Shown here: positions 36,053 through 41,604 of the stretch, piece by piece
Layout of the letters: each line of letters opens with the position of its first letter
Position numbering within the stretch: position 1 is the stretch's first letter
Source of the DNA: Mycobacterium sp. UM_WGJ
Lineage (GTDB): Bacteria > Actinomycetota > Actinomycetes > Mycobacteriales > Mycobacteriaceae
Direction: 5' to 3'
DNA length: 64,000 bases
NCBI RefSeq assembly: GCF_000455125.1
Contig: NZ_AUWR01000002.1
Span: 56,121 to 120,120 of the forward strand
The notes under the pieces: generated by a model
What the model saw: only the letters and a program-made list of their open reading frames with translations
What the model was told of the DNA's origin: nothing
Database searches by the model: none
Position numbers and translations under genes: made by a program

Positions 36053-37528
36053 GTGACCACCATCAGTACCCCGCGTTACCTGCTGGACCAGGCCAAGCGC
36101 CGGTTCACCCCGACCGTGAACACCATCCCCGGCATGGGTTTGCTCGAGAAGCGGCTGATGAACGTCGACTGGCCGCAGCGTACTTTGGCGACCCCGCCGG
36201 CGGGCAGCGGCCTCAAGCCGGTCGTGGGCGACTCCGGTCTGCCGCTGCTGGGACATATCGTTGAGATGTTCCGTCAGGGCCCCGATTTCCCGCTGCACCT
36301 GTACAACACCCGCGGCCCGGTCACGTTCGCCGACTCGCCGATCCTGCCCTCGATCGTCGCGTTGGGACCCGACGCCACCCAGACGATCTTCACCAACAAG
36401 AACAAGGACTTCTCGCAGAAGGGCTGGCTTCCGGTTATCGGGCCGTTCTTCAACCGCGGCTTGATGATGCTGGAGTTCGACGAGCACATGGCGCACCGGC
36501 GGATCATGCAGTCGGCCTTCACGCGGCCCCGGCTGGCCAGCTACGTCGAGGACATCGACCGGGTGGCTTCGGCGATCGTGGCCGACTGGCCCACCGACGA
36601 CGGCCGCTTCTTGGTGTACCCGGCGATGAAGGAGCTGACTCTCGACGTCGCCTCGGTGGTGTTCATGGGCCACGAGCCGGGCAGTGACCACCAGCTGGTC
36701 ACCAAGGTCAACCGTGCCTTCGAGCAGACCACCCGGGCCGGCGGCGCCATCATCCGCACCGGCCTGCCCCCGTTCAAGTGGTGGCAGGGCCTGCAGGGCC
36801 GCAAGCTGCTCGAGGACTACTTCGTGGAGCGAGTCAAGGAGCGTCGCAAGGTCGAGGGCACCGACATGCTCACCGTGCTCTGTCACACCTCCGACGAGGA
36901 CGGCAACAGCTTCTCCGATGCCGACATCGTCAACCACATGATCTTTTTGATGATGGCCGCCCACGACACCACCACCTCGACGGTGACCACGATGATCTAC
37001 CACCTGGCCGCACACCCCGAGTGGCAGGACCGCGCCCGCGACGAGTCGACGCGGCTCGGCGACAGCCCCTTGGACATCGAGTCGCTGGAGAAGCTGGAGA
37101 CCCTCGACCTGGTCATGGACGAGTCCTTGCGGCTGGTGACTCCCCTGCCGTTCAATATGCGCCAGACCGTGCGCGACACCGATCTGTTGGGCCATTACGT
37201 ACCGGCCGGTACCAACGTCGTGACGTGGCCAGGGATGAACCACTGGCTGCCCGAGCTGTACACCAATCCCCGTCAGTTCGACCCGGAGCGATTCCTCGAG
37301 CCGCGGTCGGAGCACAAGAAGCACCGCTACGCCTGGGCCCCGTTCGGTGGCGGCGCGCACAAGTGCATCGGGATGGTGTTCGGACGCCTCGAGATCAAGA
37401 CGGTGCTGCACCGGTTGCTGCGCCAGTACCGGATCGAGCTGTCGCATCCCGGCTACAAGCCGCGCTGGGACTACGGCGGCATGCCCATCCCGATGGACGG
37501 CATGCCGATAGTCCTGCGCCGGCTGTAG
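36053..37528 (+). CDS. cyp136: Cytochrome P450 CYP136 (copy 1)
   Basis: A 491-aa P450 monooxygenase. The oxygen-activating I-helix motif is MMAAHDTTTSTV, the K-helix ExxR is ESLR, and the heme-thiolate loop FGGGAHKCIG places the ligand at Cys438. Length and the N-terminal sequence STPRYLLDQAKRRFTP agree with mycobacterial CYP136 (Rv3059). Reported relatives resemble sterol-type P450s, but the substrate is not established. GTG 36053 has TAAGGAG upstream. It is followed after 165 bp by a close paralogue. Redox partners are not encoded here. Confidence 0.93.
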   Translation: MTTISTPRYLLDQAKRRFTPTVNTIPGMGLLEKRLMNVDWPQRTLATPPAGSGLKPVVGDSGLPLLGHIVEMFRQGPDFPLHLYNTRGPVTFADSPILPSIVALGPDATQTIFTNKNKDFSQKGWLPVIGPFFNRGLMMLEFDEHMAHRRIMQSAFTRPRLASYVEDIDRVASAIVADWPTDDGRFLVYPAMKELTLDVASVVFMGHEPGSDHQLVTKVNRAFEQTTRAGGAIIRTGLPPFKWWQGLQGRKLLEDYFVERVKERRKVEGTDMLTVLCHTSDEDGNSFSDADIVNHMIFLMMAAHDTTTSTVTTMIYHLAAHPEWQDRARDESTRLGDSPLDIESLEKLETLDLVMDESLRLVTPLPFNMRQTVRDTDLLGHYVPAGTNVVTWPGMNHWLPELYTNPRQFDPERFLEPRSEHKKHRYAWAPFGGGAHKCIGMVFGRLEIKTVLHRLLRQYRIELSHPGYKPRWDYGGMPIPMDGMPIVLRRL

Positions 37529-39192: not shown

Positions 39193-39678
39193 TCACCGCG
39201 CAGACGTATCGCACTCCGCCGTGAGAAGCCGGTTGACGCAAGTGACAACAGCGTCCACGGCTGAGCGTCCAGCCTCGGGGGCAAACCCCACCGCCCAGGC
39301 CGTCTCGCGACCGTTGGAACCGTGGATGAACGTCGCCGTCTCGGTGCCGCAGCGGAGCTGATGGAATCCGAGGATTTCCAGCGTGATACCCCGCTCGTAC
39401 AGCATCTCGGTCAGTGCGGCCAGCGGACCGTGCGCCGCTGCGGTGCACGTGCCGGTCCGATCTCCGATGGCGATTGTCGCCTGGTAAGTGCGGCCCTGGA
39501 GCCCCAGCCGTGCCGCGGGGCGATCGACGTCCAGGCAACGCCAGCGGCCCAGCCGCAGCGGTCCGGCACAACGCCCGTAGTTGGCCACAAAGCCTTCCCA
39601 CGTGAGCTGTTCGCCCGGGTCGCGCAGTTCACGCGGTAGTCGGGTGTCGAATCGGTCTGCGAAGGATGTGCTGGCCAT
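39193..39678 (-). CDS. Stand-alone LeuA regulatory (allosteric) domain protein
   Basis: A 161-aa soluble protein whose C-terminal 110 residues match the LeuA dimerisation/allosteric domain of alpha-isopropylmalate synthase: AAAHGPLAALTEMLYERGITLEILGFHQ, then a beta strand TATFIHG, WAVGFAPEAGRSAVDAVVTCVNRLL. No catalytic TIM barrel is present and none is encoded nearby. In full-length LeuA this domain binds leucine. The N-terminal 60 residues (WEGFVANYGRCAGPLRLGRWRCLDVD) add a strand region. Upstream lie a valine-coding leader peptide and competing hairpins typical of branched-chain amino acid attenuators, so expression is probably tied to amino acid supply. A role as leucine sensor or LeuA partner is inference. 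Confidence 0.78.
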   Translation of the reverse strand: MASTSFADRFDTRLPRELRDPGEQLTWEGFVANYGRCAGPLRLGRWRCLDVDRPAARLGLQGRTYQATIAIGDRTGTCTAAAHGPLAALTEMLYERGITLEILGFHQLRCGTETATFIHGSNGRETAWAVGFAPEAGRSAVDAVVTCVNRLLTAECDTSAR

Positions 39679-39724
39679 AGTGCGGTCTTTTCTGCTCGAA
39701 GAGAGCGACCGACGGGAGTAGCTT

Positions 39725-39769
39725 CCGACCCACAGCGGGGGGTCGGTCTGGATCAGACCCCGCTGCGGG
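39725..39769 (-). promoter_or_regulatory. Attenuator: mutually exclusive hairpins after the leader peptide
   Basis: Hairpin A pairs 39760-39769 with 39729-39738 and, inside it, CAGACC/GGTCTG (39754-39759 with 39745-39750). Hairpin B pairs GGGTCGG (39740-39746) with CCGACCC (39725-39731). A further alternative joins 39742-39748 with 39707-39713. A and B cannot form together; A overlaps the last codons of the leader ORF. Confidence 0.6.
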
Positions 39770-39797
39770 TGCCGGCTACTACGACTGGATAACGCAT
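39753..39797 (-). CDS. Leader peptide MRYPVVVAGTRSGV (branched-chain amino acid attenuator)
   Basis: A 14-codon frame, ATG 39797 to TGA 39753, encodes MRYPVVVAGTRSGV with three consecutive valine codons (GTC GTA GTA) at codons 5-7 and another valine just before the stop. Tandem codons for the regulating amino acid directly before alternative hairpins are the hallmark of ribosome-mediated attenuation. TAGCCT (39813-39808) lies 10 nt upstream, so the message would start 3 nt or so before the ATG. The stop is 75 nt before the LeuA-domain gene. Confidence 0.62.
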   Translation of the reverse strand: MRYPVVVAGTRSGV

Positions 39798-39867
39798 GGT
39801 GTCACTCAGGCTAATCGCGCGGCCGCCGGACGCGCAACGCATTTATCGACTGGCGTCGAGATCGATA

Positions 39868-41604
39868 TCAATTCAAGATGCGGCGGGCCACGTTGGTGGT
39901 CACCAGGTCCAGCAGTTCGTCGCTGCGACCGGCCAGGATCGTCCGGATCGCGTAGAGCGAGAAGCCTTTGGCCTGTTCAGCGGTGATCGCCGGCGGAATC
40001 GACAGTTCCTGGCGTGCGGTGACGACGTCGACGACCGCTGGTCCGTCGTAGGCGAACGCCTCGGTCAGCGCCGCTTCCAAATCGGCCGGCCGCTCCACCC
40101 GCCTACCGAACATGCCCAGCGCGGTGGCGACGGCGCCGAAGTCCGGATTCTCCAGCTCGGTACCGAAGTTGACGATGCCGGCGGCCTTCATCTCCAGTTC
40201 GACGAAGTTCAGCGACGAATTGTTGAACACGATCACCTTGACCGGCAAGCGATTCTGCGTCAAGGTCAGCAGCTCGCCGAACAGCATCGCCAGGCCACCG
40301 TCGCCGGCCAACGCGACAACCTGCCGCTTCCGATCGAAGGACTGAGCGCCGATCGCGTGCGGCAGCGCGCACGCCATGGTGCCGTGGTTGAACGATCCGA
40401 TCAGTCGCCGTCGCCCGTTCATGGTCACGTACCGGGCCGCCCATACCACCGGGGACCCGACGTCGACGGTGAAAACCGCGTCAGCTGAGGCCAACCGATT
40501 AGCCACCGCGGCAACATATTCGGGACGTATCGGCGTGCGGTCTCGATCGTTGGACGCCAGCGAGTCGAGTCGCTGTCGGGTCTTGCGGTAGTGCTTGAGC
40601 GACCTTTCCAGGTGACTGCGGTCATTCTTGGGTGCCAGCAATGGCTGTAACGCGGCGACGGTGTCGGTAACCGTGCCGAGCAGCCCGAGATCGATCGGGG
40701 TGCGCCGGCCGAGGTTTCGACCGCGAATGTCGACTTGAATGATCTGCGCACGATCGGGATAGAACTGCTGGTAGGGAAAGTCGGTGCCCAGCATCAGCAA
40801 CACATCGGCTTCGCGGATCGCCTTGTACCCGGACGCGAAACCCAGCAGTCCTGTCATACCGACGTCGTAGGGATTGTCGTACTCGATGTACTCCTTGCCG
40901 CGTAACGCGTGCACGATAGGCGCTGCCAAGGTGTGCGCCAACTCCATCACCTGGCCATGGGCGCCGGCAACTCCGGCACCGGCCAAAATGGTGACGTTGG
41001 CGGCCGAGTTGAGCATGGCCGCGGCCGCCCGCAACCCCTGCTCGTCGGGGTGGCATACCGATCCGGTGGGCCGCACCGGACGCGCCCCCCAGGCGGTCTC
41101 GTCGAGACGGTGACCGAAGATCTCGCCCGGCACCACCACGACGGCGACGCCGTTCTCCTCCACCGCCGCACGCATGGCCAGCTCCAAGATGCGCGGCGCC
41201 TGCTCGGGGGTGCTGACCAACTCGCAGTAGACACTGCACTCACGAAATAGGTTCTGCGGGTGGGTTTCTTGGAAATACTCGGAGCCGACCTCGGCGAGCG
41301 GGATGTGGGCAGCGATCGCCAGCACCGGCACCCGGCTGCGCTGCGCATCGAACAGGCCGTTGATCAGGTGCAGGTTGCCGGGTCCGCAACTACCGGCGCA
41401 TACCGCCAAACCACCGCGCAAAGCCGCCTCCGCGGCGGCCGCGAACGCAGCGGTCTCCTCGTGGCGCACCTGTTCCCAGCCGAAGTCGCCGGCCCGGCGG
41501 ATCGCATCGGTGAGCCCGTTGAGGCTGTCACCGGGTATCCCGAAGATGCGCCGCACCCCGCTGCGCTGGAGAACGGTAATGACATGGTCGGCGACGGTTG
41601 CCAC
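39868..41604 (-). CDS. poxB: Pyruvate:quinone oxidoreductase / pyruvate oxidase (PoxB)
   Basis: A 578-aa ThDP/FAD peripheral membrane enzyme that decarboxylates pyruvate to acetate and CO2, passing electrons to the quinone pool. Long identical-looking blocks to E. coli PoxB are visible: IFGIPGDSLNGLTDAI, VRHEETAAFAAAAEA (catalytic Glu of ThDP), AVCAGSCGPGNLHLINGLFD, HALRGKEYIEYDNPYDVGMTG, and the ThDP-Mg motif GDGGLAMLFGE ... NNSSLNF. The C-terminus resembles the membrane-binding tail less clearly. GTG 41604 has GGAGGAGGACGCGTA upstream. Lies downstream of fadE22 with a large stem-loop between, so probably its own unit. Confidence 0.92.
   Translation of the reverse strand: MATVADHVITVLQRSGVRRIFGIPGDSLNGLTDAIRRAGDFGWEQVRHEETAAFAAAAEAALRGGLAVCAGSCGPGNLHLINGLFDAQRSRVPVLAIAAHIPLAEVGSEYFQETHPQNLFRECSVYCELVSTPEQAPRILELAMRAAVEENGVAVVVVPGEIFGHRLDETAWGARPVRPTGSVCHPDEQGLRAAAAMLNSAANVTILAGAGVAGAHGQVMELAHTLAAPIVHALRGKEYIEYDNPYDVGMTGLLGFASGYKAIREADVLLMLGTDFPYQQFYPDRAQIIQVDIRGRNLGRRTPIDLGLLGTVTDTVAALQPLLAPKNDRSHLERSLKHYRKTRQRLDSLASNDRDRTPIRPEYVAAVANRLASADAVFTVDVGSPVVWAARYVTMNGRRRLIGSFNHGTMACALPHAIGAQSFDRKRQVVALAGDGGLAMLFGELLTLTQNRLPVKVIVFNNSSLNFVELEMKAAGIVNFGTELENPDFGAVATALGMFGRRVERPADLEAALTEAFAYDGPAVVDVVTARQELSIPPAITAEQAKGFSLYAIRTILAGRSDELLDLVTTNVARRILN

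Follow-up and report, generated by a model that had tools for sequence, protein, structure and literature searches.

An apparent LEU-type leader upstream of a stand-alone LeuA-type domain in Mycobacterium

A barrel-less LeuA-type gene and its surroundings

The analysed window, a stretch of 64,000 nucleotides from Mycobacterium sp. UM_WGJ, carries on its reverse strand an open reading frame for a 161-aa protein at 39193–39678, exactly where the preliminary description had placed it, between poxB (39868–41604) and a convergent P450 gene (37694–39172) whose end is separated by 20 bp from the LeuA-domain gene's stop. This P450 gene is the second of two similar P450-type genes in tandem on the forward strand, the other lying at 36053–37528. 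The features of the locus, with the stems as predicted from complementarity and conservation, are:

39832–39837 (−), −35 hexamer TTGCGC, 18 nt 5′ of the −10 hexamer
39808–39813 (−), −10 hexamer TAGCCT, ending 10 nt before the leader start codon
39753–39797 (−), leader reading frame MRYPVVVAGTRSGV-stop, with ATG at 39797 and TGA at 39755–39753
39777–39785 (−), three valine codons of the leader, GTC GTA GTA
39775–39782 (−), stem P3, 5′ strand GTAGTAGC, within the valine codons; 7 of 8 pairs form in the window
39715–39722 (−), stem P3, 3′ strand GCTACTCC
39758–39769 (−), stem P1, 5′ strand CCCGCAGCGGGG, within the last leader codons
39729–39740 (−), stem P1, 3′ strand CCCCGCTGTGGG
39742–39748 (−), strand A of pseudoknot P2, GACCGAC, in the P1 loop
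39707–39713 (−), strand B, GTCGGTC, partner of A (pseudoknot) or of C (sequestor)
39680–39693 (−), ribosome-binding region AGAAAAG (39687–39693) with strand C, GACCGCAC (39680–39687), which pairs with part of B
39193–39678 (−), stand-alone paralogue of the LeuA linker end and regulatory domain, 161 aa

The single-sequence match of the protein to PF08502 (LeuA_dimer) is weak, at 14.4 bits against a curated cut-off of 24.9, and the domain assignment is based on profile-profile comparison, in which 41 sequences (the window protein and 40 of the 80 named homologues) aligned with the C-termini of 13 mycobacterial LeuA proteins over 137 columns spanning the linker end and regulatory domain (hhalign probability 96.6%, E = 5.9e-10). 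The match to TIGR00970 (E = 8.5e-6) covers the end of the model, positions 455–562 of 564, with the catalytic TIM barrel absent, and the single 161-aa sequence matches LeuA C-termini at 22–34% identity. The AlphaFold2 model has a pLDDT of 90.6, and dN/dS values of 0.09–0.13 against five Mycolicibacter orthologues indicate that the protein is maintained by purifying selection. By these comparisons the protein is a paralogue of LeuA (2-isopropylmalate synthase; PDB 1sr9, 3fig) that retains only its C-terminal part, the linker end and regulatory domain, and it is probably dimeric, as is the regulatory domain of LeuA. It differs from LeuA in lacking the TIM barrel and in its pocket residues. At the leucine-contact positions L535, A536, V551, Y554, A558, A565, and A567, as given in the available text of PMC2704214, the hhalign alignment places L, A, I, F, Q, a gap, and T respectively in the 161-aa protein. 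As the contact positions are kept in part, leucine binding is plausible. A Phe-His-Gln motif is invariant among the stand-alone proteins in alignments of both 28 and 41 sequences, which suggests an altered pocket, and the G-P-x-A-A loop is retained, with G84, A87, and A88 invariant in both alignments. The earlier proposal of a LeuA leucine-binding domain without the synthase barrel is thus borne out for the regulatory-type domain and the missing barrel but only in part for the leucine contacts; of the dedicated branched-chain amino acid sensor that it suggested, the conserved stand-alone domain stands, with sensing itself plausible. At one locus (L014, genome G031) the stand-alone gene contains an in-frame TGA and may be a pseudogene.

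When 298 genomes of the order were searched with a profile, 34 of the 35 from the same genus had a strong stand-alone match. Among 20 genomes belonging to other genera of the family, 17 had stand-alone frames of 157–221 aa; for the matches listed beyond the family, the frames measured at least 581 aa, with one exception of 377. In a larger sample, counted by eye, about 277 of 296 same-genus genomes carry the gene. The remaining genomes, about 19, comprise 14 with LeuA-strength scores only and 5 with nothing; some of these absences may reflect assembly gaps, and five of the 19 are 3.1–3.3 Mb in size. By its named relatives the window falls near Mycolicibacter (M. heraklionensis, 93%), and most stand-alone proteins are 46–57% identical to that of the window. 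The gene is therefore present in most Mycobacterium genomes and apparently undescribed, no description of it or of its leader being found in the open-licence literature.

Nineteen loci were drawn, and 10 neighbouring proteins were typed at three of them (L096, L104, and L128). A convergent P450 gene lies 3′ of the stand-alone gene in the window, L096, and L128, with TetR and SDR genes further out in L096, and a nitroreductase gene takes its place in L104; the first downstream frame is convergent and 491–545 aa long in 14 of the 19 loci. The upstream neighbours vary (TauE in L104 and L128, MEDS/ATPase in L096), and PoxB is ruled out by synteny as a conserved partner. The earlier suggestion that the protein modulates PoxB found no support, with no PoxB-like neighbour present at the three typed mycobacterial loci, whilst the protein may modulate LeuA, as was also proposed. 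A 578-aa frame, matching PoxB in length, lies upstream in two Mycolicibacter loci drawn (L083 and L087).

The leader reading frame and its promoter

The 14-codon reading frame previously reported upstream of the gene, opening at ATG 39797 and encoding MRYPVVVAGTRSGV with three valine codons at 39785–39777, was recovered as described, and its conservation upstream of orthologues, which had been expected of a genuine leader, was observed. At the 80 named loci, which are the best among 179 found, the upstream core is exactly GGGGTCTGA in 77 and changed by one base in the other three (L086, L119, and L159), which excludes a chance origin of the leader. In a first set of 30 loci the core was present upstream in 29; the 30th, L021, begins at a contig end, and an element of the same kind occurs at the end of another contig of the same genome (L187). 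Among stand-alone homologues in other genera the core was found in 14 of 17, with an apparent diverged counterpart at L165 and L167 and none seen at L175. L165 and L167 belong to two genomes of 2.4–2.7 Mb from another genus of the family, and the P1-like strands of their diverged leader are different yet complementary. The 77 named loci with the exact core all have GGG GTC as the last two leader codons and GTA as codon −8. This freezing of synonymous sites points to a constraint on the RNA beyond that on the peptide, and the leader core is more conserved than the protein.

Val-Val occurs in 98 of 100 distinct Mycobacterium leaders, at least one leucine codon in 95, and Leu-Leu in 36, as read automatically; the start was not placed for L092 and L109, and the shortest-start rule gives a wrong reading for L138, whose leader is longer and contains leucine. 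GTA accounts for 198 of 310 valine codons and CTT for 67 of 137 leucine codons in the leaders, compared with 2.9% and 1.5% respectively in six coding sequences of the window, an enrichment that pairing alone could suffice to explain. The window copy and that of M. nonchromogenicus (MRYPIVVASTRSGV) have no leucine codons, and those of M. engbaekii and M. longobardus have Leu-Leu. The window leader is thus a derived form, which has been either adjusted to valine or relaxed in part. The term ‘valine-rich’, applied to it in the preliminary description, is apt for two near-invariant GTA codons within a conserved stem, but misses that the leucine codons typical of the family have been lost in this copy.

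Exact-core pattern matches away from the gene were opened at seven places, none of which lies 5′ of a LeuA-type gene. A second copy of the leader in one genome, at L180 343–449 (reverse complement of G002:C1:962300-964800), scores 75 bits and looks decayed, with no LeuA-domain reading frame seen after it. Four of the seven pattern matches fall at the end of a gene that finishes RSGV-stop and that we take to be WhiB; at L063, L064, L065, and L066, the 15-base string CGCAGCGGGGTCTGA lies within the coding sequence of a WhiB-like gene ending ...ARSGV-stop.

Upstream of the leader, a −10 box of the form TANNNT is conserved in the genus, lying 3–12 nt before the leader start in 96 of 97 distinct leaders (5.4% of shuffles), and at 7–8 nt in 89 of these. 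TTGNNN is found 16–19 nt above the box in all 99 leaders with a −10 (5.7% of shuffles). A stricter scan of 39600–39900 for the sigma-70 consensus listed no promoter, and the promoter assignment accordingly draws on conservation. Since the −10 box mostly lies 7–8 nt before the start codon, the mRNA is expected to be leaderless or nearly so, and we infer that transcription would start at or beside the leader start codon. The leader peptide of Corynebacterium diphtheriae ilvB, MNIIRLVVITTRRLP, likewise starts at the transcription start, according to the part of PMC5784534 available.

Pairing in the leader RNA and its relation to the LEU element

The three pairings listed in the preliminary description are all perfect, with 10 of 10 pairs between 39760–39769 and 39729–39738, 7 of 7 between 39740–39746 and 39725–39731, and 7 of 7 between 39742–39748 and 39707–39713, and mutually exclusive pairings are indeed present in the leader. 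The leader and gene start (39672–39797) fold at −52.6 kcal/mol, compared with a shuffle mean of −41.6 (z = −3.1), and none of 200 shuffles is as stable; these predictions were made without pseudoknots, and the energy of the A:B pairing lies outside them. Pairs were tabulated from 120 elements, of which three could not be parsed and were dropped (L019, L107, and L179) and 113 distinct elements were kept (100 from Mycobacterium and 13 from other genera). Alignment A7 and the covariance model R1 were built from 21 of the 120, picked for diversity. MAFFT mis-registers clades in the P3 region (37 elements), and for this stem anchored counts and swap tests were used instead.

In A7, 98.0% of cells pair, compared with 36–56% after sliding by 1–3 columns, with values of 98.4% for P1 and 97.2% for P2. 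P1 is paired in nearly all of the 113 elements, its third listed pair being G-U in 90, G-C in 18, A-U in 4, and unpaired in 1, and one P2 pair is A-T in 107 and G-C in six, the six being related and thus representing few events. Covariation in A7 is thin, the core being almost invariant: a single pair has changes in both partners, which 45 of 500 shuffles match, a marginal result. The covarying stems anticipated earlier are seen as alternating pairs at single positions in P1 and P2, but not in a clear excess over shuffles. For P3, which involves the GTA GTA codons, pairing within elements exceeded that between swapped strands in every one of 2000 permutations (100 Mycobacterium elements, of which L003 and L100 were unanchored; kinship uncorrected), and the same was true of pairs between the leader and the Shine-Dalgarno sequence (2000 permutations, 100 elements genus-wide; kinship uncorrected).

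Strand B can alternatively pair with strand C beside the ribosome-binding site. Of the 100 Mycobacterium elements, 71 have a B:C helix of seven pairs, compared with 4.0% of shuffles; the 13 elements of other genera do no better than shuffles, and the leuA leaders (n = 13) show B:C complementarity of only 4–6 pairs. The minimum-energy fold of the window contains five B:C pairs, a 4-pair GCUC/GAGC extension, and four outer pairs that include the start codon, and does not form the base stem of leucine codons with the Shine-Dalgarno sequence. When four leaders were folded, B:C formed in the window, L030, and L012, and the leader-Shine-Dalgarno stem formed instead in L090. Together, the pair counts, alignment, and swap tests show, at the level of sequence, the potential for P1, P3, and A:B pairing and for a competing B:C helix beside the ribosome-binding site.

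A leader element of actinobacterial leuA, the LEU element, was described by Seliverstov et al. in 2005 (PMC1262725, available in part), and the leader of the stand-alone gene is, as judged by shared sequence and pairing, homologous to it. Although trained on stand-alone-gene leaders only, R1 gives a leuA-type match (E between 8.9e-10 and 7.4e-5) in 36 of the 37 genomes of the same genus; the exception, G003, is 72% complete, and position does not link the matches of G005 and G023 to a leuA. The genome of the window has its own leuA elsewhere, with a LEU-type leader that R1 finds (G000:C52, 45.5 bits, E = 5e-9), and R1 matches opened in three loci of other families (L181, L185, and L186) precede leuA-type genes. 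R1 also gives weak matches to the opposite strand of the elements it detects. The 13 leuA genes fetched are preceded by VQRVLLLGRRDGV-type leaders that share the core, and an RxGV-stop ending (or one close to it) and GGGGTCTGAtCCAGACCG are common to both kinds of leader. Rfam returned no family at threshold for the window leader or for five loci including leuA leaders, and two chance-level matches on the other strand. Two further leuA-type paralogues (L182 and L183) have LEU-type leaders ending SRRGGA-stop.

The window leader therefore shares with the LEU element a leader frame ending RxGV-stop, as in the mycobacterial leuA leaders fetched, the GGGGTCTGAtCCAGACCG core, and a stem with a pseudoknot that is conserved after the leader frame in the 21 elements of A7. 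In contrast to the LEU element, it precedes a barrel-less paralogue rather than leuA, a gene of which the accessible portion of PMC1262725 makes no mention; leaders of the stand-alone gene have the extra valine-codon stem P3, and, in Mycobacterium, a strand C complementary to pseudoknot strand B; and a leucine-codon run is missing from the window copy, which is without any leucine codon. As leuA has the leader more widely, the simplest history would be duplication of leuA together with its leader, followed by loss of the barrel. The likeness to ilv/leu operon leaders noted previously thus holds for the branched-chain codons and exclusive pairings, but the leader is no separate invention, being related to the LEU element already presented in PMC1262725.

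A candidate translational switch and its alternatives

We favour, with fair confidence, a reading in which the leader acts as a LEU-type translational switch on a barrel-less leuA paralogue whose product works in trans on leucine/valine metabolism. A ribosome would translate the leader from a transcript that begins with the leader start codon or very close to it. With branched-chain amino acids plentiful, it would reach the UGA stop and cover the 5′ strand of P1 and strand A, and with strand A hidden, B would pair with C, hindering downstream translation. With charged tRNA for the rare GTA valine codons in short supply, the ribosome would stall there, or, in most relatives, also at CTT/CTC leucine codons, opening P3 and leaving strand A free to form A:B, which would release the C region and the ribosome-binding site and allow the protein to be made. 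Once made, the protein would influence leucine/valine metabolism in trans, the simplest route being a partnership with LeuA. Two features of the window copy speak against the switch model, namely that it has no leucine codons and no leader-Shine-Dalgarno pairing. The thin covariation, the divergent fold of L090, the lack of a B:C excess in other genera, the empty sigma-70 scan, and the partial retention of the leucine contacts also count against it. Codon mutations of S. coelicolor leuA and ilvB also reportedly behaved unlike the predictions of attenuation, according to the available part of PMC1262725.

Classical transcription attenuation by intrinsic or Rho-dependent termination within the leader, as implied by the preliminary description, has a precedent in the leader of M. 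tuberculosis ilvB1, for which PMC13236596 (whose main text does not contain the word leuA) describes a translated uORF, ‘LVVI’ regulatory codons including GUA, ribosome footprints, two exclusive folds, and an intrinsic terminator. Leaders of the stand-alone gene resemble the ilvB1NC attenuator in a branched-chain amino acid uORF with L-V-V codons, GUA as the putative regulatory codon, and mutually exclusive folds, but no intrinsic terminator was found in that of the window: a search of 39600–39900 for a GC stem followed by a T run gave no terminator-like site, and no T run follows the leader hairpins of the window. As the best conserved alternative helix moreover abuts the ribosome-binding site, a translational switch fits better, and termination within the leader appears quite unlikely, although a Rho-dependent version is possible. 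Ribosome-mediated attenuation is thus upheld as regards the leader and its exclusive folds but not as regards termination, the anatomy pointing to control of the downstream gene's translation. The leader could also be a protein- or ligand-binding RNA, its short frame a by-product or a ribosome positioner, with a trans-acting protein, possibly the autoregulating stand-alone domain, bound to the pseudoknot. Invariant synonymous sites and a core that is near-invariant while most of the proteins are 46–57% identical to that of the window are in keeping with this, and a protein-bound LEU element is argued for in the part of PMC1262725 available. However, nearly every copy keeps an open frame with its start and stop codons and the promoter spacing, the branched-chain codons sit where a stall would open P3 (Val-Val in 98 and leucine in 95 of the 100 distinct leaders), and some families in which the matches listed are LeuA-sized only have LEU-type leuA leaders; we regard a binding RNA as unlikely.

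It is similarly doubtful that the protein has ceased to sense leucine, having become a sensor of another ligand or a structural protein, with the leader a remnant of its leuA ancestry with little regulatory output. The changes at the leucine-contact positions (Y554 to F, A558 to Q, A565 to a gap, and A567 to T, numbered as in the available text of PMC2704214), the invariant Phe-His-Gln, and the absence of the gene from about 19 of 296 same-genus genomes would agree with lost sensing, whereas the retained G-P-x-A-A loop, purifying selection, and a leader core more conserved than the protein would not.

Separate regulatory subunits of biosynthetic enzymes are known in IlvN/IlvH and HisZ, which the stand-alone protein resembles in being a small regulatory protein apart from a catalytic partner, the partner here being hypothetical; it may serve as a regulatory subunit, a decoy, or a sensor. 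We tentatively raise the possibility that leucine biosynthesis in Mycobacteriaceae has an unrecognised regulatory subunit acting in trans, a duplicate of leuA from which the barrel was lost while the sensor domain and a leuA-type RNA switch were kept, the codon sensor of this switch having drifted from leucine to valine in the Mycolicibacter lineage of the window. If true, the amounts of sensor and enzyme would be set by related amino-acid signals.

In either event, the leader is a known element, LEU, in altered form on a new target, an uncharacterised and widely conserved stand-alone LeuA-type domain, which suggests a detached amino-acid sensor switched on and off by amino-acid supply. This would tie the RNA switch of leuA to a free-standing amino-acid sensor and may add a layer to the control of leucine. 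It would also provide a second, independent gene for testing how LEU elements act, a question left from 2005 by the S. coelicolor codon mutations, as presented in the accessible part of PMC1262725.
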